Source of the DNA: Burkholderiales bacterium
Lineage (GTDB): Bacteria; Pseudomonadota; Gammaproteobacteria; Burkholderiales; Casimicrobiaceae
Reading direction: 5' to 3'
Length of the DNA stretch: 64,000 nt
NCBI GenBank assembly: GCA_017989135.1
Contig: JAGNQL010000001.1
Location: 101,673 to 165,672, forward strand
Position numbers and translations under genes: made by a program. Below, piece by piece: positions 3,938-61,453 of this stretch. Under the pieces are notes generated by a model. That model did no database searches and had not been told where the DNA came from. It worked only from the letters and a program-made list of their open reading frames with translations. Positions within the stretch are counted from its first letter, which is position 1; the number at the start of each line of letters is the position of its first letter.

Positions 3938-4058
3938 TCAGCTTTATGGCTTCGCCCGCTGAAAGGCGGTCGTTCTAGCCGATTTTCCTGATATGTCGAT
4001 AAGCAACGAAAAGCCGCTGTAAACACCACCCAGCGGTCGATAGAGCCAAAAAGCTAAT
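3938..4058. repeat. Family A 121-bp palindromic element, copy 1
   Basis: Outer ends ATCAGCTTTA and AAAAAGCTAA form an inverted pair. Inside are a left hairpin (CGCCCGCTGAAAGGCGGTCG) and a right hairpin (CCACCCAGCGGTCG), separated by an AT-rich centre containing TGTCGATAAG. It lies 8 bp beyond the stop codon of the NadR-like kinase gene. Seven further copies occur in this window, all about 120-123 bp. Confidence 0.8.
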
Positions 4059-4066
4059 GCCACAAA

Positions 4067-4603
4067 CTAAGTAATCGCCGCCAGCGTTTCAAGCGCACGC
4101 GCGAGGCGCGCCTCGCCGATGCCCGTAACAACCGCCGCGCGCGCGCCAACTGCCGCCAGCGCCTTGTCAATCGCGGAGTCCACGAGCGCTCGTGCAGCTT
4201 CGCCGTCACGTTGCCAATCGGGCGACCATGCAACGTCCGTCGCTGTTTTTAGCGTCAGCGCGTAGCGCGCGTGCAGCTCGCGGGCACGCGGGTACAGACT
4301 TTCGTCGCCGAAAACGATATCGCTGTAAATCGCGGTGAGCAGCGGCGCGGTGTCGCAAAAAACGTAAGGCGTACCGCAGCGCTGGGCGTCGAGGAAGGCG
4401 GCGCGCTCGTGAATGACCTGTGTTTCGAGAATCAACGCTTGCTCGTGTTGCGTCGGCGTGCGTTGATGCGCGTCGCAAAATTCACGCAAATACTCCGGCA
4501 CCCACGGCGCGTGGAAGTGCGCCGCGAGTTGCTGCGCGAGCGTGGTTTTTCCGGTGCTCTCTGCGCCGATGATGCAGACGAGTTTTGGCGAAGGCGCTGT
4601 CAT
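4067..4603 (-). CDS. NadR-like P-loop kinase, candidate thiamine/nucleoside kinase
   Basis: A 178-residue P-loop ATPase with Walker A GAESTGKTT (residues ~13-21), then VPEYLREFCDAH and VFCDTAPLLT, all matching the ribosylnicotinamide-kinase domain of NadR (AAA_28 type). The N-terminal HTH and the NMN adenylyltransferase domain of full-length NadR are absent. The ATG at 4601-4603 overlaps the stop codon of the upstream pnuC-like gene (ATGA), showing tight coupling. The operon is headed by a TPP riboswitch and a TonB receptor, so phosphorylation of imported thiamine or a precursor is a better inference than NAD salvage. This substrate assignment is inference; the kinase fold is clear. Confidence 0.8.
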   Translation of the reverse strand: MTAPSPKLVCIIGAESTGKTTLAQQLAAHFHAPWVPEYLREFCDAHQRTPTQHEQALILETQVIHERAAFLDAQRCGTPYVFCDTAPLLTAIYSDIVFGDESLYPRARELHARYALTLKTATDVAWSPDWQRDGEAARALVDSAIDKALAAVGARAAVVTGIGEARLARALETLAAIT

Positions 4604-5205
4604 TTCGCTGCGTGAAATCGCTGCCGCCAGCCGATCCAGCCCCACACAGCGAGCGCGAAGAATATGACGTAGAGGAGGGCCGTGAGGTAGAGCGCCTTGT
4701 AAGCGAAGAGCCCAACGCTCACCGCGTTCACAATGAGCCACACCGGCCAGTTTTCAACGAACTTTCGCGCGAGCAGCACGGTGCCGACGACGCTGCCCGC
4801 CGTCACGAAACCATCGGCCCACGGCACGTCGGAGTCGGTGATGAACCGAAGCAAAATTGCGCAGGTGAACCACAGCGCCGCCCAAGACGCGAAGAGGTTT
4901 CGCCATCCCGTAGTGTCAAGCCGCGCGATGGTCAGCGGCGCGGCCGAGTCGCCGCGATGACCGCGCAGCCACTGCCACCAACCCCACACCGCGGTGACCG
5001 CAAAGAAAACGTTCACGCTTGCATCGCCGTAGAGTTTGCTCGCATAGAAAAGCCACGCATACAGGATGCTTGCGACGATGGTGAGCGGCCACCCCCAATG
5101 AATCTCGAACACGTTGCAGGTGATGTTCGCCAGCGCGAGCACGAACGCGATCACCTCAAGCCACGTGACGGCGGCGCCGAGTAAGGTGAATGCAGTGGCG
5201 AGCAT
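4600..5205 (-). CDS. pnuT: PnuC/PnuT-family vitamin permease (probable thiamine transporter)
   Basis: A 201-residue membrane protein with about seven hydrophobic segments. The PnuC hallmarks are ITCNVFEIHWGWPLTIVAS in the N-terminal half, ASKLYGDASVNVFF, and the Trp-rich AVWGWWQWLRG. PnuC proteins facilitate diffusion of nicotinamide riboside, and the PnuT branch carries thiamine. The gene begins 3 bp after the TonB receptor stop codon and overlaps the downstream kinase gene by an ATGA. Control of the operon by a TPP riboswitch favours thiamine as substrate. PnuC-type uptake depends on trapping by phosphorylation, which fits the coupled kinase. Confidence 0.8.
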   Translation of the reverse strand: MLATAFTLLGAAVTWLEVIAFVLALANITCNVFEIHWGWPLTIVASILYAWLFYASKLYGDASVNVFFAVTAVWGWWQWLRGHRGDSAAPLTIARLDTTGWRNLFASWAALWFTCAILLRFITDSDVPWADGFVTAGSVVGTVLLARKFVENWPVWLIVNAVSVGLFAYKALYLTALLYVIFFALAVWGWIGWRQRFHAAK

Positions 5206-5208
5206 GGA

Positions 5209-7386
5209 TTAGAAGTCGAGCGCGACGCTTAAGCGCGTTGTGCGCGGCGTCGACGGGAACAAATAAATGCCGCCCCAATACTGCGTTGGTGCCTCGCGCC
5301 AATAGCTGCGGTTGGTCAGGTTTTCGACATTCAAGCGCCACAGCGTGGACTTGCCCAGAAGCTTGACCTGATACCGCGCACCGAGGTCAAGCTGCCATGC
5401 GCTTGGTAGCGTCACGCTGCCGTCGGACGTCACAGTTTTTCCGTTTTCGTATGTGGCCAATGCGTTCAAGGCAAAGCCCGGCAATGCTGAAACTTTGTAG
5501 TCCGCAAACACAGATGCCTTGGTGCGTGGCACGTTGGTGACCCGCTGTCCAACGAGCGCTGAATCGACGGCCTTAGTGAATTTCGCATCGAGCATTGTGA
5601 GGCTCGTCTGAATCGAGAGCGCGTCGGTTACTCGGCCGGTTGTTGCCAACTCAAGGCCGCGATGTCGAGCTTCTTTGCCGCCGGCAATGCGCGTGGGCAC
5701 AGCGCTCGCGTAAACGTCATCCGCATAGGGTTTTTCGATATTGAACAATGCGGCGGTTACGAGCGTGCGCGCGTTGGCTTGCCACTTGATGCCCACTTCC
5801 GTTTGCTCGCTTTTAAGCGCAGGCAAGCTTTGGCCGTAGTTCGTAAATCTCGATGCGCGGTTGGGCACGACTTCTAGCTCCGCACCTTGGCCCCAAGACG
5901 CATAGAGCATCGCCGAAGTCGACGGCGACCATGACACACCGGCCCACGGCGTGGTCACCGTTTGTTCATACGACACCGCGCGCGAACCATCGCTCCTCTC
6001 GCTGCTCCGATTAAGGCGCGACACTCGCACGCCGGCGAACGATTGCACGCTCGTTGTGATCGTCGATTGCAGGCTCGCGTAGCCTTCAATCGCCCGCTCA
6101 CGCGTGTTGGTGTTTAGTTCCAACTGCGTACTATCCGACGGCAAAATCGTGGGAACGTAAATGTTGGTAGAGCCCACGTAGTTGTACGCCTGAAGCGGCG
6201 GCAGATCGCTCGTCAGACGGCGACCCGTCAAACCGAATCGTGCTGTGTGCCGCACGCCGCCAGCGCTGAACTTGCCATCGACGTGCGCGTCCCAGCTCGA
6301 GATTCTTCGCTTCTCGTTCTCGCTCCGAAAATCGTAAACATCGACATCGCCATTGGCGCACAGGCCCGGATACACATAGTTTGTCGCGTTGCTACAACCA
6401 TCTGGAAATGCGAGGCGATCATTGATGCGGCTCTGCTGCAGGTTCGCGGAAATTCGACCTTGCCAGTCGGCGTTGAAGCGATGATTGATGGCAACTTCAG
6501 CGGTTGTTGTCGTCGCTTGAAATGGTTGCGACCACGATTGATTGTTCAGGTTCAAGCGCTCCTTGACGGGGGGCAGCGTGTCGCCCGCGCCGTCGCCATC
6601 GGCATCCAAGAGGCCAAGCCCCGGCACCGAAGGTTGCGATTTGTGGTGATATTCGAAATCGGCCGATAGCGACGTTTGCGAGGACAAGTTGGTGGCGAGC
6701 GCGAGGCTCACGAATTGACGCGAACCATCTGCGCGATCAAACTGCGTGTGCAGGCGTTCAGCCGCCACGTTCAAACGCACGCCCACGTTGGCGACTTGCG
6801 CATTCGCATCCACATGCGCCTTGGCGCCGCCGCGCTCGTCCATGCCGACATTCACCGACGTGAATGATTCTTTGAGCGGCACTTTGGTCACGTAATTCAC
6901 CAAACCGCCTGGCGCGGACACACCCGACTGCATGCCCGCGACGCCCTTTAAAATCTCAATGCGCTCTTTGTTCTCGAGCGCGATCGGCGCGTAGTTCGAG
7001 GTGGCCAATCCGTTGCGCCGAAAGTTTCCCGCTTGATCGAGCAAAAAACCACGAATTGACAAGCTCTCGATGTAGCCCGTCGTGTTGTATGCGTCGGCAA
7101 GTGATGCGTCGAGCTTCAACACTTGTGAGAGCGTTTGTGCTCCGGTGCTCGCCAGAAGGTCCGCGCCAATCACTGTGATGCTTTGCGGCGTCTTGGCGAG
7201 CGGCGTGCTAAAGCCGCCGACGTCCGCGTTTTCAGCGTCGAGAATCGGCGCCGATTTCGCGGTGACCGTGATCGGTTCAACGCGTTGCGGCGCCGCCGCT
7301 TGGCTTTGCGCGAACGCAGTGGACGCTGCGGACGCAGCAGAAATGGCCGCAAGCGCAGCCACGATTGGTTTCAGAGTCAGAGCCAT
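5209..7386 (-). CDS. TonB-dependent outer-membrane receptor, probable thiamine receptor
   Basis: A 725-residue protein: signal peptide (residues 1-~29, ending ..STAFAQ), plug domain beginning with a TonB-box-like region EPITVTAK and containing KTPQSITVI, ESLSIRGF and ERIEILKG, and a long beta-barrel ending in the characteristic terminal Phe (LSVALDF). By sequence it looks like the siderophore-receptor type, but the leader carries a TPP riboswitch and the next genes are a PnuT-like permease and a kinase, so thiamine or a derivative is the likely ligand. ATG 7386 has a good ribosome-binding site (GAAGGAA) and starts the signal peptide; the longer upstream reading is inside the riboswitch leader. 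Confidence 0.88.
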   Translation of the reverse strand: MALTLKPIVAALAAISAASAASTAFAQSQAAAPQRVEPITVTAKSAPILDAENADVGGFSTPLAKTPQSITVIGADLLASTGAQTLSQVLKLDASLADAYNTTGYIESLSIRGFLLDQAGNFRRNGLATSNYAPIALENKERIEILKGVAGMQSGVSAPGGLVNYVTKVPLKESFTSVNVGMDERGGAKAHVDANAQVANVGVRLNVAAERLHTQFDRADGSRQFVSLALATNLSSQTSLSADFEYHHKSQPSVPGLGLLDADGDGAGDTLPPVKERLNLNNQSWSQPFQATTTTAEVAINHRFNADWQGRISANLQQSRINDRLAFPDGCSNATNYVYPGLCANGDVDVYDFRSENEKRRISSWDAHVDGKFSAGGVRHTARFGLTGRRLTSDLPPLQAYNYVGSTNIYVPTILPSDSTQLELNTNTRERAIEGYASLQSTITTSVQSFAGVRVSRLNRSSERSDGSRAVSYEQTVTTPWAGVSWSPSTSAMLYASWGQGAELEVVPNRASRFTNYGQSLPALKSEQTEVGIKWQANARTLVTAALFNIEKPYADDVYASAVPTRIAGGKEARHRGLELATTGRVTDALSIQTSLTMLDAKFTKAVDSALVGQRVTNVPRTKASVFADYKVSALPGFALNALATYENGKTVTSDGSVTLPSAWQLDLGARYQVKLLGKSTLWRLNVENLTNRSYWREAPTQYWGGIYLFPSTPRTTRLSVALDF

Positions 7387-7458
7387 CGAAATTCCTTCAA
7401 TCGACGGCAGGGGTGAGGCACAGACACGTCCGACCACGAGGGCGGATAAGTTCGGCGA

Positions 7459-7553
7459 CGCTTCCCTGCGCAAGTATTACCTTGATCAAGTTCCAGGGTG
7501 TTATCTCAGCCGAGGCCCATAAGAAGTATGAGCTCCAGCACCCCTAGCGTGTA
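7459..7553 (-). promoter_or_regulatory. TPP riboswitch (THI element)
   Basis: Read on the minus strand, the segment has the TPP aptamer landmarks in order: CTAGGGGTGCTGGAG, then CGGCTGAGATAACACCCT, then GGAACTTGATCAAGGTAATA, then CTTGCGCAGGGAAGCG. GGCTGAGA and CTTGATC..GGTAATAC..GCG..AGGGAA are the most conserved parts of this class. It lies in the leader of the TonB receptor gene, with about 70 nt between aptamer and ATG where translation or transcription could be switched off when TPP is plentiful. Confidence 0.95.
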
Positions 7554-7581
7554 TTGGCATGTTTTTGGCATGCCAGCGGGA

Positions 7582-7587
7582 ATTATA
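7582..7587 (-). promoter_or_regulatory. -10 box of the thiamine operon promoter
   Basis: A perfect TATAAT on the minus strand sits about 30 bp upstream of the TPP aptamer. No strong -35 is visible at 17 bp (AGTTTA). The presumed start point falls on a TGGCATG direct/inverted repeat at about 7555-7576. Confidence 0.5.
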
Positions 7588-9166: not shown

Positions 9167-9286
9167 GATGACTTTTATGGCCGAGCGGCTGCTATACGGC
9201 CGCTAGCAGCTGTTTTCAGAAAAGTCGATAAGTAGAAAAACTGTTGTCAAACGGCCACCCGGCGGTGGTTAATTCGAAATAGCTGT
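9167..9286. repeat. Family A element, copy 2
   Basis: Left end GATGACTTTTATGG and right end AATAGCTGT. Inner hairpins are GCGGCTGCTATACGGCCGC and CGGCCACCCGGCGGTGG, around a centre with AAAGTCGATAAGTAG. It is the most diverged copy at its left end, but length, order and centre match the others. It lies 3' of the symporter gene. Confidence 0.7.
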
Positions 9287-9424
9287 GTGTGGAATCGGTC
9301 ACTTCGGTTTGGGCTGATCGTGCGCAACGCGGTTAATCGCAATGTGGTGCGATACTGAACTTTGCTAGCGCTCGCTATCACCAAACGCTAGGCGCACACA
9401 ATCGAACCGAACTGGAGTCAAATC

Positions 9425-12708: not shown

Positions 12709-12830
12709 TTCAGCTTTTCGGCTCTAGCGACTGCCTGGTGGCGTTTGCAGTCCTATTCTTAATACTGTTGACTTTACAGAAAATGCATCGGAAAACGCCG
12801 CCCGCTAGTCGCATACGCGAAAAAGCTGTT
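12709..12830. repeat. Family A element, copy 3
   Basis: Ends TTTCAGCTTTTCGG and GCGAAAAAGCTGTT. Inner hairpins are CGACTGCCTGGTGGCG and CGCCGCCCGCTAGTCG. It fills the space between two convergent genes and reaches the last bases of the SDR gene's stop codon. Confidence 0.85.
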
Positions 12831-19332: not shown

Positions 19333-19392
19333 GTAGGCGCTGCCTAGGCCGCACTAGATGCAGTGGAGCGACGCCAAGTCGTCGCCTACAAC
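19333..19392. repeat. Family B hairpin element, copy 3
   Basis: Runs from GTAGGCGCTGCCTAGGCCGC to GCGACGCCAAGTCGTCGCCTA plus CAAC. It lies 12 bp beyond the heme A synthase stop codon. Its right arm is the complement of the left arm of copies 1 and 2, so it is inverted relative to them. Confidence 0.75.
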
Positions 19393-19567: not shown

Positions 19568-19915
19568 ATGCGTTTTTCCAAATTGTCTCTCGTCACCGCG
19601 CTGGCTGGCGCTGCGGCTGCCATCACCTTGACCGGCTGCGTAGTCGCCGCTCGTGTGCCCGGCCCGGCTTACGTCAACAGCGGCCCAGTGATCTACGTGG
19701 ATCGTGCGCCGCCAGCGCCTTACAGCGAGCAGATGCTGCCGTCGCCGGGCGCGGGCCATGTCTGGGTTGGCGGCTACTGGCACTGGACGGGGCGCGACTA
19801 CACGTGGACGCGCGGTCATTGGGCGCGTCCGGCGCACGGCCACACACAGTGGGTGCCGGGACACTGGCGCCGTGACCAGCGTGGTCATCATTGGGTCCCA
19901 GGCCACTGGCGCTAA
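19568..19915 (+). CDS. YXWGXW-type small lipoprotein
   Basis: A 115-residue protein with a lipoprotein signal: charged start, hydrophobic core and lipobox LTGC (Cys at about residue 24). The mature part is rich in Trp, His, Gly and Pro and consists of short repeats around GYWHWTGRDYTWTRGHW and VPGHWRRD, the YXWGXW/WxPGHW repeat seen in BcpO-related lipoproteins. It probably faces the periplasm or outer membrane; no function is established. The AGGAGG ribosome-binding site is ideal, so expression may be high. The stop codon (TAA) is the first part of a family A element. Confidence 0.8.
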   Translation: MRFSKLSLVTALAGAAAAITLTGCVVAARVPGPAYVNSGPVIYVDRAPPAPYSEQMLPSPGAGHVWVGGYWHWTGRDYTWTRGHWARPAHGHTQWVPGHWRRDQRGHHWVPGHWR

Positions 19916-20034
19916 CAGCTTTTCTCGCTGAGCGACCGCCAGGTGGCGGTTGCGGCGAAATTATCCTATTAGTCGACTAAGCGAAAAAATGCGATGAAAC
20001 GACCGCCTGGCGGTCGCTGAACGCAAAAAGCTGT
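19914..20034. repeat. Family A element, copy 4
   Basis: Near-canonical copy: AACAGCTTTT at the left and CAAAAAGCTGT at the right, hairpins CGACCGCCAGGTGGCGG and CGACCGCCTGGCGGTCG, and a centre with TTAGTCGACTAAG. It fills the gap between two convergent genes and contains the end of the lipoprotein's stop codon. Confidence 0.9.
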
Positions 20035-20037
20035 ATA

Positions 20038-20625
20038 TTAACTACGAACACGCACCGCGTTCTTGGGGCGGAAGCCTTTGCACACCGCATCGTTGGTTTC
20101 GATGTACGCGCCGCCGATCAGATCAACGCAGTACGGCACGGCCGCAAAAATGCCGTGCACCACCGACTTGCCGTCTCCGTCGCGCAAGCCTTCGAGCGTT
20201 TCTTTGATGCTTTTCGGCTGGCCGGGCAAGTTGATGACTAGCGTTTTGCCGCGAATCACAGCGACCTGCCGCGACAGAATCGCCGTCGGCACGAAGTTCA
20301 AGCTGATCTGACGCATCTGCTCGCCGAAGCCGGGCATTTCTTTGTGCGCCACCGCGAGCGTCGCCTCCGGCGTCACGTCACGCCGCGCCGGGCCTGTGCC
20401 GCCAGTTGTAAGCACGAGATCGCAGCGTTCGACGTCACACAATTCAACGAGCGTGGATTCGATGGTCGGTTGCTCGTCGGCTATGAGGCGCGTCGCGTAC
20501 GTCACGGGATTTTGAATCGCGCTGGCCAGCCACTCTTGCAGCGCAGGAATGCCTTTGTCCTCGTACACGCCGGTTGAAGCGCGGTCAGAGATGGAGACAA
20601 GGCCGATTTTTACTGGATCGAACAT
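20038..20625 (-). CDS. mogA: Molybdopterin adenylyltransferase (MogA)
   Basis: A 195-residue protein of the MoaB/Mog fold. The MPT-binding signature TTGGTGPARRDVTPEATL (residues ~75-92) is intact and is followed by MPGFGEQMRQI and NLPGQPKSIKETLEGL. It activates molybdopterin by adenylation before molybdate insertion, in the cytoplasm. The length is that of MogA rather than of a MoeA or CinA fusion. No other molybdenum-cofactor genes are near. It shares its strand with darP 24 bp upstream, so the two may be co-transcribed. Confidence 0.93.
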   Translation of the reverse strand: MFDPVKIGLVSISDRASTGVYEDKGIPALQEWLASAIQNPVTYATRLIADEQPTIESTLVELCDVERCDLVLTTGGTGPARRDVTPEATLAVAHKEMPGFGEQMRQISLNFVPTAILSRQVAVIRGKTLVINLPGQPKSIKETLEGLRDGDGKSVVHGIFAAVPYCVDLIGGAYIETNDAVCKGFRPKNAVRVRS

Positions 20626-26106: not shown

Positions 26107-26167
26107 GTAGGCGCGGACTCGGCCGCGCTTCCCCGTGGCCCGGAGCGACGCCAAGTCGTCGCCTACA
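26107..26167. repeat. Family B hairpin element, copy 4
   Basis: Runs from GTAGGCGCGGACTCGGCCGC to CGACGCCAAGTCGTCGCCTAC. It lies 45 bp past the pseudouridine synthase stop codon, with an AGCCGC-type arm and the same GTAG/CTAC ends as the other copies. It is the last repeat of either family before the 13-kb repeat-free stretch. Confidence 0.75.
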
Positions 26168-27658: not shown

Positions 27659-28924
27659 ATGACAGCCACTTCTCACGAACTCGTTGCGGCGGTGCTGTTC
27701 GCACTCGCAATCGCGCACACTTTTCTCGCACCCAAGATTGCGTCGTACGGCCACCACCACCCCTCGCACAAGGGGCTTTTTCACTTGCTGGGGGAAGTTG
27801 AAGCAGTCTTCGGGCTTTGGTCCGGCGTGCTGTTGGCTTATCTCTTTTTCTCTGGTGGCTTCAAAGCCGCGACTGATTACATTGATGGCCGCAACTTCAC
27901 GGAACCGATGTTTGTGATCGCGATTATGGTTGTGGCCGCCAGTAAGCCTGTGCTGCACGTCGCGAAGCTGTTTGTGTCCGCGCTGGCGAGAATGATGCCA
28001 TTGCCGCAAACCGTCGCGATGTTCTGGCTGACACTTGCGTTTGTTCCGTTGTTGGGGTCGTTCATCACCGAGCCCGCCGCTATGACGTTGGCTGCATTTA
28101 TGCTGCGGGACCGTTTCTATAGGGCGCACTTATCTTCTAGGTTGAAGTACGCGGCGCTTGGCGTGTTGTTTGTCAACGTATCGATTGGTGGCGTCCTGAC
28201 TCCATACGCGGCGCCTCCCGTGCTTATGGTTGCCGCCAAGTGGGATTGGAACATCGGATTCATGATTTCCAATTTCGGCTGGCGATCGGCCCTAGCGGTT
28301 GTGACCAACGCGACGATTATTACCGCGATGTTCTATCGTGAAATCAAATCGGTCAGCGCCACGCATGACGGCACCAACGAGGGTTCGATTCCGGTGACCG
28401 TCTGCCTCACCCATATTGCTCTTTTGGTGGGTGTCGTCGTCTTCGCGCATCACCCGGCGCTGTTTATGGGTGTCTTGCTGCTTTTCTTGGGGATCGCAAG
28501 CGCGTATCCACGGTTCCAAGACCGCTTAATTCTTCGCGAAGCACTGATGGTCGGATTTTTCCTCGCTGGCTTGGTAGTGCTGGGTGGCATGCAACAATGG
28601 TGGCTGCAACCGCTGTTGCTCAGAATGTCGCCGGATCAGGTGTACTTCGGCGCGACGGCCTTGACCGCCATCACTGACAACGCGGCACTGACCTATCTTG
28701 GGTCACTTGTGCCCGGCCTGTCGCCGGAGTTCAAGTACATGCTCGTGGCCGGGGCGGTCACGGGTGGCGGTTTAACCGTTATCGCCAACGCGCCGAATCC
28801 CGCAGGCTACTCGATCCTCAAGGGCTACTTTAAAGACGAGCACATCAGCCCGTTGTGGCTCCTTGTGGCGGCCGCAGGCCCAACATTGGTCGCGATCATG
28901 TGCTTCTGGCTTCTGCCGCGGTAA
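27659..28924 (+). CDS. Putative Na+/H+ antiporter (PF07399 type), paralogue 1
   Basis: A 421-residue membrane protein with about 11-12 hydrophobic segments. The conserved stretches DGRNFTEPMFVIAIMVVAAS, LGSFITEPAAMTLAAFML, VLFVNVSIGGVLTPYAAPP, TAITDNAALTYLGSLVPG and GGGLTVIANAPNPAGYSIL identify the Na_H_antiport_2 family. The TAITDNAA segment carries the paired Asp-Asn likely to bind the ion. A second member (37927-39198) shares all five segments with about 55-60 percent identity by eye. Both flank the osmotic-stress genes in the same orientation. ATG 27659 follows TTAGGAA. Ion specificity is inferred from the family only. Confidence 0.85.
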   Translation: MTATSHELVAAVLFALAIAHTFLAPKIASYGHHHPSHKGLFHLLGEVEAVFGLWSGVLLAYLFFSGGFKAATDYIDGRNFTEPMFVIAIMVVAASKPVLHVAKLFVSALARMMPLPQTVAMFWLTLAFVPLLGSFITEPAAMTLAAFMLRDRFYRAHLSSRLKYAALGVLFVNVSIGGVLTPYAAPPVLMVAAKWDWNIGFMISNFGWRSALAVVTNATIITAMFYREIKSVSATHDGTNEGSIPVTVCLTHIALLVGVVVFAHHPALFMGVLLLFLGIASAYPRFQDRLILREALMVGFFLAGLVVLGGMQQWWLQPLLLRMSPDQVYFGATALTAITDNAALTYLGSLVPGLSPEFKYMLVAGAVTGGGLTVIANAPNPAGYSILKGYFKDEHISPLWLLVAAAGPTLVAIMCFWLLPR

Positions 28925-37926: not shown

Positions 37927-39198
37927 ATGAACCCCACCACCATTCAACTCATCGGCGCAACGCTCTTCGCGCTGGCCGTAGTTCACACGTTTTCCGTTCG
38001 CTACTTCGAGCGTCTTGCGCATCGCTACCCCGCGCATGCCGGCAGCTTCCACTTCCTTGGCGAAGTGGAAGTGGTGTTCGGGTTTTGGGCGCTCGTGTTT
38101 GTCGCGTTTAAGTTCGCCTTCACCGGAAAAACAGCGACGGTTGATTACCTTGAAGGGCGAAATTTCACGGAACCGATGTTCGTGTTTGTCGTGATGGTTG
38201 TTGCGGCGAGCAAACCGATTGTTGAGCTTGCGGGCTTGGCCGTGCGGTCGCTGACGCGCATCGTGCCGGTCAAAACGCACAGCAAACCGATGGCATTTTT
38301 CTTCATCGTACTTGCGCTCGTTCCAATGCTCGGCTCATTTATCACCGAGCCCGCCGCGATGACGCTTGCCGCGCTCATGTTGCGCGAGCATTTCCTGTCG
38401 AAGGACATTTCTACGCGGATGAAGTACGCGACGCTCGGTGTGCTCTTCGTGAACGTTTCCATTGGCGGCACGCTTACTGCGTACGCAGCGCCGCCGGTGC
38501 TCATGGTGGCGCAAACCTGGAATTGGTCGAGCGCATTCATGCTGCAAAACTTCGGCTGGCGCGCGGCGCTCGCGGTGTGTGTGAACGCACTGGTGATCAC
38601 GCTGATCTTCGCGCGCGAGCTGCGCCACATTCCCTATCAAGCCAGCGGCGGCCAACGGGCGAATGTGCCGTGGTCGATCATCCTCGTGAGCGTGTGTTTT
38701 CTAGCAAGCGTCGTGGTCTTCGCGCACCACGTAACGGTGTTCATCGCGATCTTTTTGTTCTTCCTCGGCTTCGCGAGCGCGTACGAGAAATATCAAGACA
38801 AACTCATCCTGCGCGAAGGCTTGCTCGTCGGCTTCTTCCTTGGCGGGTTGGTCGTGCTCGGCGCGCAGCAACAATGGTGGTTGCAACCGATTCTCACGGG
38901 CTTGTCGCCGAGCGCGGCGTTCTGGGGCGCCGCGGCGCTTACGGCTATCACCGATAACGCGGCGATCACCTATCTCGCGTCGCTCGTGCCCGGTCTCTCC
39001 GACGAATTCAAATACATGGTCGTCGCAGGCGCGGTCACCGGCGGCGGGCTCACAGTGATCGCCAACGCGCCCAACCCCGCGGGCTACGCGATTCTCAAAG
39101 GCAATTTCCCGGATCAAGCGATCGGAGCGGGCGGGCTGTTGCTCGCCGCGTTGCCGCCGACGTTGGTCGCGGCCGTGTGTTTGTGGGGACTACGCTGA
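37927..39198 (+). CDS. Putative Na+/H+ antiporter (PF07399 type), paralogue 2
   Basis: A 423-residue membrane protein that carries the same landmarks as paralogue 1: EGRNFTEPMFVFVVMVVAAS, LGSFITEPAAMTLAALML, VLFVNVSIGGTLTAYAAPP, TAITDNAAITYLASLVPG and GGGLTVIANAPNPAGYAIL. Expected to exchange Na+ for H+ at the inner membrane. It is separated from the ClC gene by a promoter-terminator unit, so it is either under its own promoter or under attenuation from the one at 37696. The ribosome-binding site is weak. A family A element lies 39 bp past its stop codon, which marks the return of dispersed repeats. Confidence 0.85.
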   Translation: MNPTTIQLIGATLFALAVVHTFSVRYFERLAHRYPAHAGSFHFLGEVEVVFGFWALVFVAFKFAFTGKTATVDYLEGRNFTEPMFVFVVMVVAASKPIVELAGLAVRSLTRIVPVKTHSKPMAFFFIVLALVPMLGSFITEPAAMTLAALMLREHFLSKDISTRMKYATLGVLFVNVSIGGTLTAYAAPPVLMVAQTWNWSSAFMLQNFGWRAALAVCVNALVITLIFARELRHIPYQASGGQRANVPWSIILVSVCFLASVVVFAHHVTVFIAIFLFFLGFASAYEKYQDKLILREGLLVGFFLGGLVVLGAQQQWWLQPILTGLSPSAAFWGAAALTAITDNAAITYLASLVPGLSDEFKYMVVAGAVTGGGLTVIANAPNPAGYAILKGNFPDQAIGAGGLLLAALPPTLVAAVCLWGLR

Positions 39199-39236: not shown

Positions 39237-39358
39237 CACAGCTTTATGCCCGCAGCGACAGCCAGGCGGTCGTTTAAGCGCGATTATCGAGATAGTCGAA
39301 TATTGAATTTATTTGGCCAGAACGGCCGCCCACTGGTCGGTAGAGCCTAAAAGCTGTA
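39237..39358. repeat. Family A element, copy 5
   Basis: Ends CACAGCTTTATGCC and CCTAAAAGCTGT; hairpins CGACAGCCAGGCGGTCG and CGGCCGCCCACTGGTCG; centre with GATAGTCGAATATTG. Placed 3' of the second PF07399 antiporter. Confidence 0.88.
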
Positions 39359-39473: not shown

Positions 39474-42074
39474 ATGAAACGCGTTTTTGTACTTCTTCTA
39501 TTGCTCTGCGCTAGCGCAGCAAGCTTCGCGCAGTCCATCACGAGCGGTTCGGCGACGTTTACGCGCACTAGTCCCAGTTCGTTCGACGCCACACCAACGG
39601 CCAATTTCGCGGGCGTAACCGCAGGCCCCGGTGATCAAGTGTTCGAGTTTGGTTGGTGGTATCGCGTGAGCGGCGACACGGCGGAAACGCCGTTCCCACT
39701 TCCGACTTCGCAGGCGTACGTCGGCGACACTTCGACTATCACTTGGACAAACGTGAACGGGCGCGGTTTTGACGCGCAGGAGACCTGTGTCGTGCTCGGG
39801 ATTGCTTCTCCGATTGGCGGCAAAGTGACGTGCACGATGCGCATTACGAATCCCGGCGCCGCCGCGCTGACCATCGATATTTTTGTGATGACAGACGTTG
39901 ACCTTGGCGGTACCGCAGCCAGCGACAGCGTCACCGTTGGCATCCCGCAGCAGCGCCTTGACCTCACGGACGGCTCGGTGTCCGACACCGCACAATTCGC
40001 TGGCATTGGCGCATCCGCGCTGCTGGTTCGTCCGTTTGGTGCGACCACGGACGTCGCGGGCCTTCTCTCCGACACGCTCGTGACGAATTTCGACAACTCG
40101 GGCGTTCCCGCGACCAACTTTGATTTCACCGGCGGCTTTCAGTGGTCCACAATGACAGTGCCCGCGGGGGGCAGTCGCGACGTGGTGACGGTGGTGGCTT
40201 TCAACACGACCGCGTTCGCGGCGAGTGCTGATTTGGCAATCACCAAAACCGATGGCGTAACCAGCGCGGCCCCTGGCGCCAGCGTGACCTACACCATCAC
40301 CGCGTCAAATGCTGGCCCCGACGCGTCGGGCGCGGTCGTTGCGGACACCTTCCCCGCATCGCTCACCTGCTCCTGGACTTGCGTTGGAGCGGGTGGTGGC
40401 ACGTGTAGCGCAGCTGGTGCCGGCAACCTAAATGACACCGTGAATTTGCCCGTTGGCGGAAGCGTCAGCTATACCGCGTCCTGCGTCGTATCACCGAGCG
40501 CGACCGGTTCGCTCAGTAACACCGCGACGGTCACCTCGACAGGTGGCACCACCGACCCAGCTCCCGGCAACAACAGCGCGACGGACACAGACACGCTCAC
40601 GCCGACGGCCGACATCTCAATTACCAAAACCGACGGCGTAACCTTCGCAACGGCTGGCGGATCCGTCACCTACACCGTGACCGCAGCAAACGCTGGGCCG
40701 AGCGACGCCAACGGCGTGTTCGTCGATGACATGATGCCTGCCACGTTGACTTGCAACTGGACGTGCGTCGGCGCGGGCGGTGGGACCTGCACGGCCTCCG
40801 GCGCGGGCAATATCAACGACACCGTCAATCTCCCAGCGGGCGGCAGCGTCATCTACACCGCTGCCTGCGCCGTGAGTCCCAGCGCCACCAGCACAATTGT
40901 CAATATGGCGACGGTCAGCCCGCCGCCGACGGTGGTTGACCCGAATTCGGGAAACAACGCAGCGACTGACACTGACACTGTGATGGCCTCGGCGGATCTG
41001 TCGATCACGAAGACCGACGGCGTCACCACTGCCACGGCGGGCGGATCGGTCACCTACACGATTGTCGCCAGCAACGCCGGCCCGAGCAACGCCCCGTCCG
41101 CAAACGTCAGCGACACCTTCCCGGCGTCGCTCACGTGTACGTGGACGTGTGCGGGCGCGGGTGGCGGCACTTGCGCGCCGTCCGGTGCCGGCAACATCAA
41201 CGACACGCCGAACCTTCCGGCGGGCGGCAGCGTCACCTACACCGCCGCATGCGCCGTTTCGCCGTCTGCCACCGGCTCGCTCGTTAACACCGCGACAGTT
41301 GGCACGGGCCCGCTCGTTACCGACCCGAATGTCGGCAACAACAGCGCGACCGATACCGACGCCCTTGGCAGTGCCGCCGATTTGTCGTTGACGATCAGCG
41401 ACTCGCCCGATCCTGTGACGTCGGGCGCTCAAATCACCTACGCGATCAATACCGCCAATGCGGGCCCGAGCGACGCGTCTGCCGCCGTCATGACGATCGC
41501 CACACCCGCGAACACCACGTTTGTGTCGTTGGCGTCACCAGGCTGGACGTGCACCGCGCCAGCCGTCGGCGGCAGTGGCACCGTGACGTGTAATCTCGCG
41601 TCGTACCCCTCCAGCGGAACGGCGAACTTCACGTTGGTCGTTGCGGTTGCATCGACGTTCACCGGCACGGTTTCGGCCACGGCCAACATCACCGCGTCCA
41701 CCACAGACACGACGCCGGGCAACAACTCGGCGAACGCCAGCACGCTGGTCAACGCGTTGCCCGTCGTCGTGAGCGGCGTTGTCTCGGGCAGCGGCGGCAC
41801 GATCTCTTGCGCTAGCCCCGTGGCCAGCGGTTCGACGACGACCTGCGTCATCACGCCTGCGCCGGGCTTCGGCATCGGCTCGGTGAGCGGCTGCGGCGGT
41901 GTGACCGGAACGACCAGCCCCTACACCACGGGCGTTATCACCAGCGCTTGCACGGTGACAGCGACGTTCGCGTCGCTCTTTGTCGCGCCGGTTCCGGCGA
42001 CCGAATGGGGCGTGATTGTTCTGCTCACGCTGATGCTCGGTGTGCTCGGCGCGCGTCGCCGCCGGGCGGTTTGA
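39474..42074 (+). CDS. DUF11-repeat surface protein with IPTL-CTERM sorting signal
   Basis: An 866-residue exported protein: signal peptide (MKRVFVLLLLLCASAASFAQ), an N-terminal domain (to ~245), then four tandem beta-sandwich DUF11-type units at about 247, 378, 505 and 633, each opening with an ADLSITKTDGV-like motif and containing TYTITASNAGPS and a Cys pair (TCTWTCxGAGGGTC) in the first three. A short Gly/Cys unit follows, then a C-terminal IPTL-CTERM anchor: TEWGVIVLLTLMLG plus ARRRR. Such tails are processed by a dedicated sorting system in Gram-negative bacteria, not found in this window. It is probably an extracellular or surface structural protein. The three near-identical units suggest recent internal duplication. 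Confidence 0.85.
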   Translation: MKRVFVLLLLLCASAASFAQSITSGSATFTRTSPSSFDATPTANFAGVTAGPGDQVFEFGWWYRVSGDTAETPFPLPTSQAYVGDTSTITWTNVNGRGFDAQETCVVLGIASPIGGKVTCTMRITNPGAAALTIDIFVMTDVDLGGTAASDSVTVGIPQQRLDLTDGSVSDTAQFAGIGASALLVRPFGATTDVAGLLSDTLVTNFDNSGVPATNFDFTGGFQWSTMTVPAGGSRDVVTVVAFNTTAFAASADLAITKTDGVTSAAPGASVTYTITASNAGPDASGAVVADTFPASLTCSWTCVGAGGGTCSAAGAGNLNDTVNLPVGGSVSYTASCVVSPSATGSLSNTATVTSTGGTTDPAPGNNSATDTDTLTPTADISITKTDGVTFATAGGSVTYTVTAANAGPSDANGVFVDDMMPATLTCNWTCVGAGGGTCTASGAGNINDTVNLPAGGSVIYTAACAVSPSATSTIVNMATVSPPPTVVDPNSGNNAATDTDTVMASADLSITKTDGVTTATAGGSVTYTIVASNAGPSNAPSANVSDTFPASLTCTWTCAGAGGGTCAPSGAGNINDTPNLPAGGSVTYTAACAVSPSATGSLVNTATVGTGPLVTDPNVGNNSATDTDALGSAADLSLTISDSPDPVTSGAQITYAINTANAGPSDASAAVMTIATPANTTFVSLASPGWTCTAPAVGGSGTVTCNLASYPSSGTANFTLVVAVASTFTGTVSATANITASTTDTTPGNNSANASTLVNALPVVVSGVVSGSGGTISCASPVASGSTTTCVITPAPGFGIGSVSGCGGVTGTTSPYTTGVITSACTVTATFASLFVAPVPATEWGVIVLLTLMLGVLGARRRRAV

Positions 42075-42081: not shown

Positions 42082-42203
42082 AGCAGCTTTAGCGCTCCGG
42101 CGACCGCCTGGCGGTCGTTTGAGCGTTATTCTCGTGATTGTTGATATTTTTATAAAAGGCCGCATAACGACCGCCCGCTGGTCGTTGGCGCCGAAAAGCT
42201 GTT
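42082..42203. repeat. Family A element, copy 6 (near-consensus)
   Basis: Ends AGCAGCTTTAGCG and GCCGAAAAGCTGTT. Both inner palindromes are clean: CGACCGCCTGGCGGTCG and CGACCGCCCGCTGGTCG; the centre is AT-rich (GATTGTTGATATTTTTAT). It lies 7 bp past the DUF11 gene's stop codon and just upstream of the glyA promoter. Confidence 0.92.
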
Positions 42204-50494: not shown

Positions 50495-50617
50495 AACAGC
50501 TTTTAGGTGCTAACGACCAGCGGGCGGTGATTTCAGCTCGTTTTGAGGATTTGTTGATTTGTTAGCAGAACGGGCTGAAAGCACCGCTCAGCAGTCGTCG
50601 CGGCAGAAAAGCTGTTA
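50495..50617. repeat. Family A element, copy 7
   Basis: Ends AACAGCTTTTAGGTG and GCAGAAAAGCTGTTA; hairpins CGACCAGCGGGCGGTGA and CACCGCTCAGCAGTCG; AT-rich centre (GATTTGTTGATTTGTTAG). Its left hairpin is in the opposite sense from other copies (CCAGCGGG arm first), so the element is inverted. It lies 3' of the Bug receptor and 11 bp before a family B hairpin. Confidence 0.88.
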
Positions 50618-50628
50618 ACCCGCAACGT

Positions 50629-50687
50629 GTAGGCGCGACATCAGTCGCGCTCGACGGAGATTGAGCGCGACTGATGTCGCGCCTACA
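50629..50687. repeat. Family B hairpin element, copy 7
   Basis: A very clean inverted repeat: GTAGGCGCGACATCAGTCGC and GCGACTGATGTCGCGCCTAC with a ~19-nt loop. It lies between the convergent Bug receptor and dusA genes and immediately follows a family A element. Confidence 0.9.
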
Positions 50688-57730: not shown

Positions 57731-57767
57731 TCTTGCTTGATGGGATGTTTGCTGCGTGTGTTGAAAA

Positions 57768-57805: not shown

Positions 57806-57807
57806 GA

Positions 57808-58971
57808 TTGAGTTCAACGGAAGTTCACGCCCGTGTCTTCGGGCTAGACACGCTTCGTGCCGCTGCGATCTTGCTGGTGTTCATGTATCACTATCAAGTG
57901 TTCGTCAGCGGCGAAGACACGTTTGGTTGGCTCAGCACCATCGGTTGGGTCGGCGTCGATTTGTTTTTCGTGCTCAGCGGCTATTTGATTGGCAATCAAA
58001 TTTTCGCGGAATTGCGCCGTACGGAAACGCTGTCGCTAAAGCGTTTTTATGCGCGTCGTTTTTTGCGCACGCTACCGAATTTTTACGTCGTACTTGCGTT
58101 GTACTTTTTGTTTCCGGTTGCGATGGGAGGCAAGACACCGCCGCCGCTTTGGCAATTTCTGACTTTCACGCAGAACATTCAGTTGCAGCCGGGCACCGCG
58201 TTTTCACATGCGTGGTCGTTGTGTATTGAAGAGCAGTTTTACGTCTTTCTGCCGATGACGGTATTGCTCGTGATGGGGGCGATACCGACGCGAAATTTAG
58301 AAACGTTTGCGTGCATGATGTGGGGCTTGATCGCTGTCGCCATCGTCGCCGCGATCTGCTGGCGCGCTTGGCTGTGGACGCAATATGGCCTGCTCGAAGG
58401 CGACGCGATTCGTGGCTATCACCCCAACATCTATTACGCGTCGCTGTGCCGAGCCGATGAGTTGCTGCCAGGCGTGGCCGTGGCACTCATCAAAAACTTT
58501 CACGTGAACGCCTGGCAGTGGCTCATGGAGCGTGGGCGTGCGTTGTTCGCGGTGGGCGTGAGTTGCGTGGCCGTGATGCTCTGGGCGCTGTTCAATTTCT
58601 ACGAAATTCCGAACTACGGGTACGGCTTCGCGATGACGGCGTTTGGGTACTCGCTCCTCGCGATGGCGTTCGCGGTGTTGCTGGCTTCGGCGCTGAGTCC
58701 TGCGTCGCCGCTCAACGCATGGCGTGTGCCCGGTGCGGCGCAATTGGCGGCGTGGTCGTACGCGTTGTATTTGACGCACAAGGCTGTGGCGCACATGCTG
58801 CGAACACCGCTTAAGACGTACGGCGTCGACCCGAATAGCGCGCTTGGTGTGGTCGTCGTAAGCATCGCCTGCCTAGCTGCGGGATGGCTGTTGTACCGTT
58901 TGGTCGAGACGCCGTTTATGGCGATTCGTGCTCGATATTTTCCGGTCCCAGCGGGGACCCGTGCGGCGTGA
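57808..58971 (+). CDS. Acyltransferase 3 family membrane protein
   Basis: A 387-residue protein with about ten membrane helices. The N-terminal motif VFGLDTLRAAAILLVFMYHY holds the catalytic His-type region of OafA/NolX-like acyltransferases (LRAxAxxxVxxxH pattern ending in YHY), and VGVDLFFVLSGYLIG is the second hallmark. It should transfer acyl groups to a cell-surface sugar. The TTG start at 57808 is the only one that keeps the first helix intact and lies against a hairpin; a different start is possible. No LPS or exopolysaccharide genes are adjacent. Confidence 0.85.
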   Translation: MSSTEVHARVFGLDTLRAAAILLVFMYHYQVFVSGEDTFGWLSTIGWVGVDLFFVLSGYLIGNQIFAELRRTETLSLKRFYARRFLRTLPNFYVVLALYFLFPVAMGGKTPPPLWQFLTFTQNIQLQPGTAFSHAWSLCIEEQFYVFLPMTVLLVMGAIPTRNLETFACMMWGLIAVAIVAAICWRAWLWTQYGLLEGDAIRGYHPNIYYASLCRADELLPGVAVALIKNFHVNAWQWLMERGRALFAVGVSCVAVMLWALFNFYEIPNYGYGFAMTAFGYSLLAMAFAVLLASALSPASPLNAWRVPGAAQLAAWSYALYLTHKAVAHMLRTPLKTYGVDPNSALGVVVVSIACLAAGWLLYRLVETPFMAIRARYFPVPAGTRAA

Positions 58972-58993
58972 TTCGGTGTCGCGAAGTGAACGT

Positions 58994-59482
58994 CTAGAGT
59001 CGCGCGAGCGCAACGTTCGCGACGCGCGCGCCACTGAGCCCGATGAGCTCCTGCGGATCAACCGCGAACATGGCGTGTGGCGTGCCGCCGGCAGGGAACA
59101 CGGTGTCAAAGGCGAGCAAATCTTCGTCTAACAATATCGCGCCGGGGTTGGTGTGCGCGATGGGCGGCACGCCGCCGATCGCGAAACCGGTTTGTTCACG
59201 CACGAAGGCGGCGTCGGCTTTGGCGAGTTTTTCACCGATGATCGCGGCGACCTTCTTCTCGTCCACGCGATTGCCGCCACTGGTAATCACCAGCACCGAG
59301 GTGCCGGTTGCTGCGTTTTTGAAGATGATGCTCTTTGCGATCTGTGCAATGTCGCAACCGAGCAACTCGGCTGCTTCTGCGGCCGTACGCCCTGGATTTT
59401 CATGTTCGGTAATCTGCGCGCTGCTGCCTGCGGCAGCGAGAGCGTTTTGCACTCTTTGTGCGGACGGCGACAGCGCAGTCAT
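58994..59482 (-). CDS. YbaK/EbsC-family aminoacyl-tRNA deacylase
   Basis: A 162-residue protein of the YbaK/ProX fold. The conserved Lys in IAKSIIFKN, the GVPPIAH loop and TSGGNRVDEKKV are the hallmarks; these proteins hydrolyse mischarged tRNAs such as Cys-tRNAPro or Ala-tRNAPro in trans. The ATG at 59480-59482 overlaps the stop codon of the upstream DEAD-box gene by one base (TAATG), so it is translationally coupled to an RNA helicase, an unusual partner. The longer frame upstream lies entirely inside the helicase C-terminus and is not used. Confidence 0.88.
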   Translation of the reverse strand: MTALSPSAQRVQNALAAAGSSAQITEHENPGRTAAEAAELLGCDIAQIAKSIIFKNAATGTSVLVITSGGNRVDEKKVAAIIGEKLAKADAAFVREQTGFAIGGVPPIAHTNPGAILLDEDLLAFDTVFPAGGTPHAMFAVDPQELIGLSGARVANVALARL

Positions 59483-61260
59483 TACGCAGTCGCGGTCACA
59501 CTCGGCGTGGCGTCTTGTGCAACGGATGCGGCCGCGGAGATTTGGGTTACGTCTACGGCGGGCGCATCGTGCGGCATCGACATCGCGGCTGTCGACTCTG
59601 CAACGGCTGCAGCAAGCGGTGCCGCTTCCGCAACTGTCGCGTCTGGCGCAGCTGGTGCGGCGGCTACAGAGGGGGCAGGGCGCGGCGCACGCACCGGCGC
59701 GCGCAGCAACGCGCACACTTCGTTCATCGCGCGGCGACCGTTGGTGATGTGTCGCGCGCCGCGAGCGCCTTGAGCGTTCGGGGCGATGGGCTGGTCAGGA
59801 TTGAGGTCGAAATGGGTCTTGTCGCGGCCGCCTTGATAATTCGTGCGGCGCGGTTCTGCCATTGACGGGCGCACGCTGCCGTAGCCCTCGCCGCGCGGTG
59901 CGCGTGGAGATTCATCTGCCGCCTTGCGCGGCCCATAGCGTTCGCCGTAGCGGGACAAATCCGGCATCGGCTGCTCGTCGAGCTTCCTCTTGATGAGTTT
60001 TTCAATCTCGGCCAGAAGCTTGCCGTCGTCCGGCGACACGAACGAAATCGCAGTGCCCGACGCGCCAGCACGACCTGTGCGACCAATGCGGTGCACGTAA
60101 TCTTCGGCAACGAATGGAAGCTCGTAGTTCACGACCGTGGGCAACTGATCAATGTCGATACCGCGCGCCGCGACGTCAGTGGCTACCAAAATTCGAACGG
60201 TGCCGTTCTTGAAGGCTTCGAGCGCTTTCATGCGCTCATCTTGCGTTTTGTCGCCGTGAATGGCGTCGGTGGTGAAGCCGTCGCGCGCAAGCTCACGCGC
60301 GAGGCGCGCGGTCTGCAATTTCGAACGCGAAAACACGAGCACTTGCTGCAAGTTTTGTGAATTGACCATGTGGCCGAGCAAGCGGCGCTTGTCGTCGCCA
60401 TGCACGCGATACATCTGCTGTGCGACATTCGCCGCAGACTCGTTGCGGCGCGCCACCTCGATCAGCACCGGCGCTTTGAGCATGCGGTCGGCGAGCTTCT
60501 TGATTTCGTCTGAGAACGTCGCGGAGAAGAGCAAGCTTTGCCGCTTCTCAGGCAACAGGCCGATGATGCGCACGATGTCGGGGATGAAGCCCATGTCGAG
60601 CATGCGATCCGCTTCGTCGAGAACCAACACTTCGACCTGATTGAGCGAAAGATTTTTTTGCTCAAGGTGATCGAGCAGTCGGCCCGGCGTGGCGACGAGA
60701 ATCTCGACGCCGGCGCGCACAGCGGCTTTCTGCTCCTTGATATCCACGCCGCCGAAAACGACGGTAGAGCGAATGCCGGTGTGTTTGGCGTACGTCTCGA
60801 CGGCTTCTTGAATTTGGATCGCCAACTCGCGCGTCGGGGCGAGCATGAGCGCGCGAATCGGGTGGCGTGCGGGCGAAGGGGAGCTGTTGGCGTGCTTGAT
60901 GATCCGGTTGAGGATCGGCAGCGTGAACGCAGCGGTTTTGCCGGTGCCGGTTTGCGCGCCGCCCATCACGTCGAGGCCGGAGAGCACGATCGGAATTGCC
61001 TGCGCCTGAATCGGCGTGGGCTTGGTGTAGCCCGATTCGGTGACCGCACGCAGGATGGGTTCGGCGAGGTTGAGCTGCGCGAACGTGATGTCGGCTGGTA
61101 CAGTGGCGTCGACTTTTACGACGGTGGCGGGCGCGACGACTGTTTCCGTGGCTTCAGCGGGCGCAGCGAGTTCGGCGAGCGGGGTAACTGCGGCGAGGGT
61201 TTCGGTGGCGGCTGGAGCATCGGCTGCAGCGGGTGAGGTGGCGTGTGTTTCGTTTGTCAT
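59482..61260 (-). CDS. DEAD-box RNA helicase, RhlE-like
   Basis: A 592-residue ATP-dependent RNA helicase. Q motif KPTPIQAQAIP, Walker A AQTGTGKTA, PTRELAIQI, TPGRLLDHL, the DEAD box VLDEADRMLDMGF, SATF, and HRIGRTGRAGASG are in order. The core spans ~75-445. It has an Ala/Thr/Glu-rich N-terminal extension (~60 residues) and a ~150-residue C-terminal tail: first basic (PRRTNYQGGRDKTHFD), then Ala/Pro-rich (PVRAPRPAPSVAAAPAAPD). RhlE-type helicases act in ribosome assembly and RNA turnover. The gene overlaps the downstream ybaK-like gene by one base. Confidence 0.92.
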   Translation of the reverse strand: MTNETHATSPAAADAPAATETLAAVTPLAELAAPAEATETVVAPATVVKVDATVPADITFAQLNLAEPILRAVTESGYTKPTPIQAQAIPIVLSGLDVMGGAQTGTGKTAAFTLPILNRIIKHANSSPSPARHPIRALMLAPTRELAIQIQEAVETYAKHTGIRSTVVFGGVDIKEQKAAVRAGVEILVATPGRLLDHLEQKNLSLNQVEVLVLDEADRMLDMGFIPDIVRIIGLLPEKRQSLLFSATFSDEIKKLADRMLKAPVLIEVARRNESAANVAQQMYRVHGDDKRRLLGHMVNSQNLQQVLVFSRSKLQTARLARELARDGFTTDAIHGDKTQDERMKALEAFKNGTVRILVATDVAARGIDIDQLPTVVNYELPFVAEDYVHRIGRTGRAGASGTAISFVSPDDGKLLAEIEKLIKRKLDEQPMPDLSRYGERYGPRKAADESPRAPRGEGYGSVRPSMAEPRRTNYQGGRDKTHFDLNPDQPIAPNAQGARGARHITNGRRAMNEVCALLRAPVRAPRPAPSVAAAPAAPDATVAEAAPLAAAVAESTAAMSMPHDAPAVDVTQISAAASVAQDATPSVTATA

Positions 61261-61330
61261 TGCCTAAATTTTACGCTATTTTCGCCGAAAAACGCCACTG
61301 CAACCCGCGTGAAATATAGATGACAAGAAT

Positions 61331-61453
61331 CCCAGCTTCTTAGTGATAACGGCTGCCCAGAGGCGCTTTAAGGTCGAAAATTATGAAAGTCGACTCAGCG
61401 ATAAAACGTCGTTTAACGACCGCATGGCAGTCGCCGCAGCACAAAAGCTGTTA
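61331..61453. repeat. Family A element, copy 8
   Basis: Left end CCCAGCTTCTTAGTG (diverged), right end GCACAAAAGCTGTTA; hairpins CGGCTGCCCAGAGGCGC and CGACCGCATGGCAGTCG; centre with GAAAGTCGACTCAGCG. It lies between the helicase start and the 3' end of the LysR gene (58 bp away). Confidence 0.75.

Follow-up and report, generated by a model that had tools for sequence, protein, structure and literature searches.

The matS, Noc and SlmA sites and parS of bacterial chromosomes are about 13–20 bp long and fewer or regional, uptake sequences (uptake signal sequences and DNA uptake sequences, USS/DUS) have species dialects, and Correia elements are palindromic intergenic repeats within 100–170 bp. 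ERIC sequences are described as 127 bp long (PMC2229807), and their reported copy numbers range from 30 to 711 per genome (PMC10969869). REPs, palindromic and 20–40 bp long, most with GTAG or CGTC tags, are reported to lie mostly downstream of genes, in unidirectional and convergent gaps (PMC3733652), and YPAL, of 168 bp, is described as making target duplications and predicted to be recently mobile (PMC2229807). Here we analyze a stretch of 64,000 nt from a Burkholderiales bacterium (contig JAGNQL010000001.1, positions 101,673 to 165,672; in the following called the window) that contains eight copies of a palindromic intergenic element of about 122 bp. An initial annotation of the window had taken it for a family of ERIC-like size without a name. 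This assessment holds so far: Rfam at gathering scores returned only a TPP riboswitch in the window and no match to the element, and limited literature searches, most subscription journals lying outside their reach, brought up no described family that fits. Its sequence, as the initial annotation noted, differs from that of ERIC.

Architecture of the element and type of constraint

The eight copies align as one family near 122 bp, within 1–2 bp of the positions originally assigned to them. A sequence-only model built from these copies recovers just the same eight places in the 64-kb window, with best-strand E values of 6e-27 to 8e-21, and matches their opposite strands too; the next-best place has an E value of 0.91. 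The core motif had no match above 12 bits in one base-shuffle of each genome set. For column statistics we used 94 gapless copies from the window's own genome (G000, a 3.35-Mb draft in 331 contigs) and the congener G012, excluding 16 of 110 copies with insertions or deletions. These copies are of type A; a second type, B, shares the layout but not the inner module, and its pairing was analyzed on 27–30 copies.

The element is a sharply bounded unit with its dyad between columns 61 and 62. Read from the outside inward, each half consists of ACAGCTTTT, a palindromic inner module of ~20 bp, an A/T run and half of WWGTCGACWW. The inverted ends ACAGCTTTT/AAAAGCTGT and the inner CGAC.GCC/GGCGGTCG blocks that had been noticed in the window are thus borne out by the 94 copies. 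The AT-rich center described along with them holds the best conserved motif, WWGTCGACWW at the exact dyad, which had been overlooked. Conserved blocks, with many columns 93–100% identical, alternate with columns near background composition (free columns), and the total information is ~103 bits in type A and ~98 bits in type B. Some nine putative contact blocks follow one another at intervals of 13.5 bp around the GTCGAC dyad. The information content is periodic, at 13.5 bp in type A (block-shuffle p ~0.004) and near 13.75 bp in type B (p 0.057 for the maximum, 0.001 at 13.5 bp). Its power is 0.205 at 13.5 bp versus 0.03 at 10.5 bp, and A + T content peaks weakly at 9.5 bp (0.103).

The double hairpin of the initial annotation fits the consensus, but hairpin pairing is not what is conserved. 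Mirrored columns of the 94 copies pair at a frequency of 0.537, compared with 0.536 expected if they were independent, and the two inner hairpins exceed their expectation by ~0.01 each. Type B shows no covariation either (0.524 versus 0.509 expected in 30 copies; 62.1% paired cells versus 61.5% in shuffles in 27 copies). One of five pairing measures, the number of pair types, was high in the latter set and was reached by 7 of 500 shuffles; sliding the pairing partner lowered pairing to 37–45%, as expected of any palindromic consensus. Compensatory changes were looked for in types A and B and were not found. The left half matches the mirrored right half with an identity of 0.550 within a copy and 0.549 between copies. 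Coupling is strongest mostly between neighboring columns, as in protein–DNA readout: the top 20 column pairs comprise 17 of adjacent columns, two with a distance of two and one distant pair (108–122). The element is not a conserved hairpin, and its constraint is base-specific. A hairpin or RNA function was rejected on the lack of covariation in both types.

Pairwise identity among the 94 copies averages 0.554, the same as in column-shuffled copies, and its maximum of 0.738 lies inside the shuffled range of maxima; the 14 lowest-information columns reach 0.267, again equal to the shuffled value. There are no near-identical or close pairs among these copies, and their flanks share no k-mer outside the element's ends that would indicate a target duplication, though old duplications may have decayed. 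The copies are not a burst of recent duplicates, and random free columns beside nearly fixed contact columns point to constraint on each copy. In several of the listed copies the match is confined to one half. Within the stretches read of G000, G012 and the congeners G005 and G011, a minor part of each genome, searches for half-sites found only halves of listed copies, except for one weak (13-bit) place in G012, and revealed no autonomous partner with matching ends. By-eye inspection showed no opposite-facing half-element pairs enclosing genes. A comparison of the sixth copy of the window with plasmids and phages gave no match, and none of 80 loci of relatives of a widely shared antiporter carried the element.

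Range, placement and spacing of the copies

The genome-wide search anticipated in the initial annotation uncovered many further copies in G000 and related genomes. At least 150 matches were scored among 1020 candidates on both strands of G000, representing ~100 distinct places by hand count. The stretches read contain 76 copies in 702 kb, one per 9.2 kb, which would give a total of about 360 copies if this density holds. These contigs were partly picked for holding matches, and the first G012 tiles were all picked that way, so that densities lean upward. In G005, a single-contig genome, we counted 41 copies in 480 kb, or 36 in 400 kb with a genome-specific model, and an arbitrarily picked stretch (1.0–1.1 Mb) has 7 copies in 100 kb. 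Genome-specific models identified 18 copies in G011 (178 kb read), 10 in G007 (72 kb), 8 in G010 (60 kb) and 3 in G002 (80 kb), and the density across the stretches read ranges from 1 per 7 kb to 1 per 27 kb. In a panel of 40 genomes, 17 from congeners and 23 from outside the genus, a model called R1 matched 9 genomes, all in the genus, and the type-B model matched 16 of the 17 congeners (20 times in G008, not in G016) and none of the 23 others, in each case among the matches listed. Scans for the core covered 262 kb from other genera (six genomes, five genera) and 40 kb each of G008 and G016, and found nothing above 11 bits.

Both halves of a copy are nearly always of the same type: 63 of 64 copies are AA in G000 and 29 of 30 in G012, while 18 BB and one AA were found among the 19 G005 copies, out of 33 full ones, with exactly 124 columns. 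G011 is mixed, its 17 copies comprising 12 BB, 2 AA, 1 AB and 2 with one unclear half. This two-way test assigns G007, G010 and G002 to B, although they have their own consensus modules. The gap beyond a MoCF gene, which in the window holds the fourth copy, illustrates these differences. In G005, G011, G007 and G015 the element there keeps the plan but has another inner module, and in G012 it resembles that of G000; in several other congeners none was seen or the case was undecidable by eye. The inner module differs between species, and we call these variants dialects.

Based on gene calls from an in-house hexamer caller, no copy in G000 has its midpoint in a gene. Its 76 copies lie between convergent genes in 25 cases, tandem genes in 40 and divergent genes in 10, with one at a contig edge, whereas free insertion points would predict 10.2, 48.3 and 16.5, respectively (p 3e-6). 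The context bias recurs in G012 (p 4e-4) and is not significant in G005 (p 0.06), where 12 of 36 copies lie between divergent genes, or in G011 (p 0.13). Copies between tandem genes tend toward the upstream stop codon, to which they are closer in 36 of 40 cases in G000, 14 of 16 in G005, 12 of 17 in G012 and 7 of 11 in G011. Of the G000 copies, 65 have a gene 3′ end next to them on at least one side, at a median distance of 19 bp (90th percentile, 133 bp). The suggestion that every copy lies within about 60 bp of a stop codon is correct for all eight in the window but fails for some genome-wide; the enrichment at gene 3′ ends is strong in G000 and weaker elsewhere.

Spacing was tested in G000, G005 and G011 only, since the G012 tiles were too short. 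The mean spacings in the three genomes are 8.7, 10.6 and 9.1 kb, the value of 10.6 kb belonging to G005. As a null, copies were placed in the real intergenic gaps according to gap length, with two copies per gap allowed. Compared with this null, the 33 gaps between G005 copies, of 3.2–19.3 kb, have a coefficient of variation (CV) of 0.41 versus 1.01 (0 of 2000 simulations), the 16 gaps of G011, of 5.0–22.4 kb, 0.51 versus 1.00 (4 of 2000), and the 58 gaps of G000 0.78 versus 1.09 (2 of 2000), the weakest of the three. In G000, 12% of the gaps are shorter than 3 kb, compared with 38% expected, and the smallest gap is 1.4 kb. Against this null, element spacing is more even than chance in all three genomes. 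An outlier in G000 is an element-free gap of 45.6 kb (contig C47, L079–L081, ~8.0–53.5 kb) with genes for a tyrosine integrase, a DUF927 protein, phosphoketolase and acetate kinase, probably a genomic island. In G005, copies occur all round the chromosome, including the region where GC skew flips sign. A depletion at the terminus, hinted at among the matches listed, was not borne out there, with 5 copies in 80 kb and a largest gap within the random range.

To some extent, sites are shared between species. Six of ten genome pairs compared for synteny have at least one shared occupied gap and four have none. Two of these pairs were given p values, which ignore gap length. Between G005 and G011, 4 gaps are occupied in both, 2 in one only and 48 in neither (p 5e-5); between G000 and G005 the numbers are 2, 2 and 29 (p 0.017). 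The site of the fourth copy in the window, beyond the MoCF gene, is also occupied in G005, G011 and G012, and its junction on the side of the neighboring WXXGXW gene is identical in G000 and G005, even though the former carries type A and the latter type B. The gap of the eighth copy is occupied in G005 as well and, weakly, in G011.

A putative docking site and its rivals

We give a probability of roughly 0.4 to the reading that the element is a putative protein docking site kept copy by copy, with the division of the chromosome into domains as its likeliest use. The element would be a twofold-symmetric site in double-stranded DNA for a predicted sequence-specific, probably multi-subunit protein complex, and each site would be kept by selection at its own locus. 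Sites would lie every ~10 kb where promoters are spared, chiefly just beyond stop codons, and would most likely serve as fixed anchors or barriers that split the chromosome into supercoil-sized domains of ~10 kb. Protein binding is suggested by the base-specific constraint; the domain role is the more tentative part. Supercoil domains of E. coli and Salmonella are reported to average ~10 kb, with 400–500 per E. coli chromosome (PMC3820752), and we favor domain anchors because the element spacing resembles these. The ~10-kb supercoil domains of bacteria have been described as dynamic, with stochastically distributed ends (PMC3820752). It is possible, but doubtful, that the chromosome of the whole genus is partitioned by ~400 hard-wired, evenly spaced 122-bp docking sites anchoring ~10-kb domains, with a predicted multi-subunit reader whose recognition of the inner motif changed between species and hundreds of sites following. 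If so, hard-coded even sites would make domain boundaries genetically testable, site by site, and the dialects would raise the evolutionary question of how hundreds of sites in one genome come to have a common motif when a sister species has another.

Several observations weigh against a docking site with a role in domain formation. The agreement with 10-kb domains is numerical only, and target immunity or uptake drive would also produce even spacing. Under a null that allows each gap a single copy and ignores gap length, the CV of G000 is not significant (86 of 1000 simulations; G011, 9 of 1000; G005, 0 of 1000), so that the evidence from this genome leans on its shortage of short gaps (12% versus 29% under this null). 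Pairwise identities spread more widely than in shuffled copies (standard deviation 0.057 versus 0.040; mean of the top 20, 0.689 versus 0.668), which may reflect differences in copy quality, differences between the two genomes or some kinship. From five pairs of orthologous copies in G005 and G011, one without an aligned pair was dropped; in the four used, 48 of 141 free columns are identical (0.34 versus 0.30 in random pairs), compared with 0.63 for fourfold codon sites and 0.72 for aligned and 0.59 for shuffled intergenic DNA. Free columns of orthologs as unlike as those of unrelated copies indicate that the interiors change more rapidly than expected from simple vertical retention. In these four pairs only, interiors change fast while position and contacts stay; an orthologous pair of G001 and G015 has kept more free (17 of 35) and fewer contact columns (33 of 53). 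ParB_N genes are present in 26 of 26 genomes, with more than one match in six, and show no pattern with the element; ParB_N was dropped as its partner on these grounds.

Among the rivals, a non-autonomous mobile element (miniature inverted-repeat transposable element, MITE) with long multi-site ends, spaced out by a target-immune transposase, appears rather unlikely. Like a MITE, the element is short and non-coding, has terminal inverted repeats and lies between genes, and the two sites filled in G011 and empty in G005, the smallest gaps of 3.2 kb (G005), 5.0 kb (G011) and 1.4 kb (G000) and the joint presence of both types in G011 would be compatible with transposition. Yet the 94 copies share no target duplication and include no close pairs, their contact columns are largely intact though the free columns are randomized, unlike in decaying relics, and independent half-sites are limited to the one weak G012 place in what was read of the four genomes. 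Nor is a transposase linked to the element: of 43 Y1_Tnp matches in all, 30 loci were read, 21 of them from the genus, and just one has a copy within ~1.5 kb. Y1_Tnp genes occur in all 15 other element-bearing congeners searched, are absent from G008 (20 element matches listed) and G016 (none), and are found in the genera of G017, G019, G021, G022 and G023, which lack element matches, though not of G018 or G020. Their presence does not follow the element, and a link to REP-associated tyrosine transposases (RAYT) was dropped. The initial annotation had considered a non-autonomous mobile element and asked for empty sites in sister strains. Some sites are common to syntenic species; these, together with the even spacing, the lack of shared target duplications and close pairs and the randomized free columns beside nearly fixed contact columns, disfavor a passive family, leaving some room for mobility. 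An uptake-type or self-recognition signal, spread by molecular drive because site-bearing DNA is preferentially taken up or spared, is unlikely too. It would explain why sites persist, keep their mutual distance, avoid constrained sequence and form species dialects, and it fits the even spacing, the genus-wide use, the dialects of the inner motif, the 3′-end placement and the lack of the element in the 45-kb integrase-carrying stretch of G000. Uptake sequences are said to be spread fairly evenly in H. influenzae, and recently acquired segments of Haemophilus and Neisseria to be poor in theirs (PMC7811141); such even spacing was once taken as a sign of roles in replication, repair or compaction (PMC1939737). 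However, the H. influenzae sequences are given as ~31 bp or shorter and ~1 per kb (PMC7811141), and a 122-bp dyad of 100 bits occurring once per 9–11 kb is far larger and rarer. If uptake drive or a target-immune element were nevertheless the answer, it would be far larger and differently built than the cases known to us.

Less probable still is a preferred site of gyrase or another topoisomerase, where DNA would wrap symmetrically about the cleavage point and supercoils would be relieved at gene ends. For E. coli, REPs are reported as gyrase targets, and cleavage at gene 3′ ends may relieve supercoiling (PMC3733652). The exact dyad with its four-base palindrome TCGA and the placement at 3′ ends and between convergent genes agree with such a site. 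The length presumably resembles a topoisomerase footprint as well, but gyrase is highly conserved and weakly specific, while the inner motif changes between congeners and, among the matches listed, the element occurs in 0 of 23 genomes outside the genus. Nor does the periodicity favor it, the information power being 0.03 at 10.5 bp and 0.205 at 13.5 bp. The least probable explanation, which we consider very improbable, is an RNA-level element, proposed initially as a bidirectional terminator or mRNA 3′ stabilizer. Single copies do fold better than shuffled sequence (z −2.5 to −7.7 with DNA parameters), and the 3′-end bias would suit it. Mirrored columns of both types, however, pair no more than composition predicts, only about three T follow the inner hairpins, and copies between divergent genes number 10 of 76 in G000 and 12 of 36 in G005.

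The copies in the window and their relation to described systems

None of the eight copies is assigned a strand. Copy 1 (3937–4058) lies 8 bp beyond the stop codon (4067) of an AAA_28 gene on the minus strand, after genes of the NMN-transporter family and for a TonB receptor. Ahead of these three genes is the TPP riboswitch (7446–7555, minus strand), and the group resembles a vitamin-uptake operon that ends at this copy. Copy 2 (9167–9287), one base shorter, follows the stop of a sodium:solute symporter gene by 25 bp in tandem context. Initially, several copies were thought to fill convergent gaps. Three are in such gaps and two fill them: copy 3 (12709–12830), between LysR and SDR genes, which overlaps the SDR stop codon, and copy 4 (19914–20035), between the WXXGXW (19568–19915) and MoCF (20038–20625) genes. 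The third, copy 7 (50495–50616), leaves 40 bp to a TctC-family gene and 102 bp to a dihydrouridine-synthase gene and adjoins an inverted repeat pair of TGTAGG type. Copy 5 (39237–39358) is located 38 bp beyond an Na_H_antiport_3 stop in tandem context. Copy 6 (42082–42203), the best model match, starts 7 bp beyond the stop of a DUF11-repeat gene and ends 233 bp before a serine hydroxymethyltransferase gene. Its central dyad block (42138–42147, columns 57–66) reads TTGTTGATAT, with the axis between 42142 and 42143, and its left inner contact module (42099–42119, columns 18–38) is of the CGACCGCC..GGCGGTCG type in G000, the part that varies between species. Copy 8 (61331–61452) is found 58 bp beyond a minus-strand LysR stop; a DEAD-box helicase gene follows after 70 bp.

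The window has further repeats. A second, unrelated REP-like family of TGTAGGCG...GTCGC type occurs at 3204–3230, 3860–3886, 19366–19392, 26107–26167 and 50628–50687, singly and as inverted pairs, one pair directly beside copy 7, and the congener G013 (L297, ~4.3–5.2 kb) has arrays of a similar repeat. Two related genes ~10.3 kb apart (27659–28924 and 37927–39198) share stretches of 71–75% DNA identity; the latter is an Na_H_antiport_3 member by Pfam. The gene at 39474–42074 encodes a protein with four DUF11 repeats, seen as a 384-bp periodicity in the DNA. Congener Y1_Tnp (HUH) proteins are small, with open frames of ~170–210 aa, often several per genome.

Judged from sequence, the element may represent a new kind, its combination of features being found in none of the families tested or met in the literature searches. 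Integron attC sites were considered and rejected, because the copies are scattered singly among unrelated genes. With ERIC sequences (intergenic repeat units, IRU) the element shares a similar length, palindromy and intergenic location, but ERIC is classed as a MITE, whereas the element has no target duplication or near-identical copies, is evenly spaced and is under base-specific constraint. It resembles REPs and bacterial interspersed mosaic elements (BIME) in being palindromic and mostly downstream of genes, in unidirectional or convergent gaps, and differs from REPs in its 122 bp and in having no GTAG or CGTC tag. YPAL and Correia elements are likewise palindromic intergenic repeats of 100–170 bp; unlike for YPAL, neither target duplication nor recent mobility was seen. 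Like the matS, Noc, SlmA and parS sites, it is non-coding, repeated on the chromosome and, by prediction, bound by a sequence-specific protein, but it is 122 bp long and spread over the whole G005 chromosome. With uptake sequences, as described for USS/DUS, it shares a genome-wide, relatively even distribution and scarcity in newly acquired DNA, while being four or more times longer, about ten times rarer and exactly twofold symmetric.

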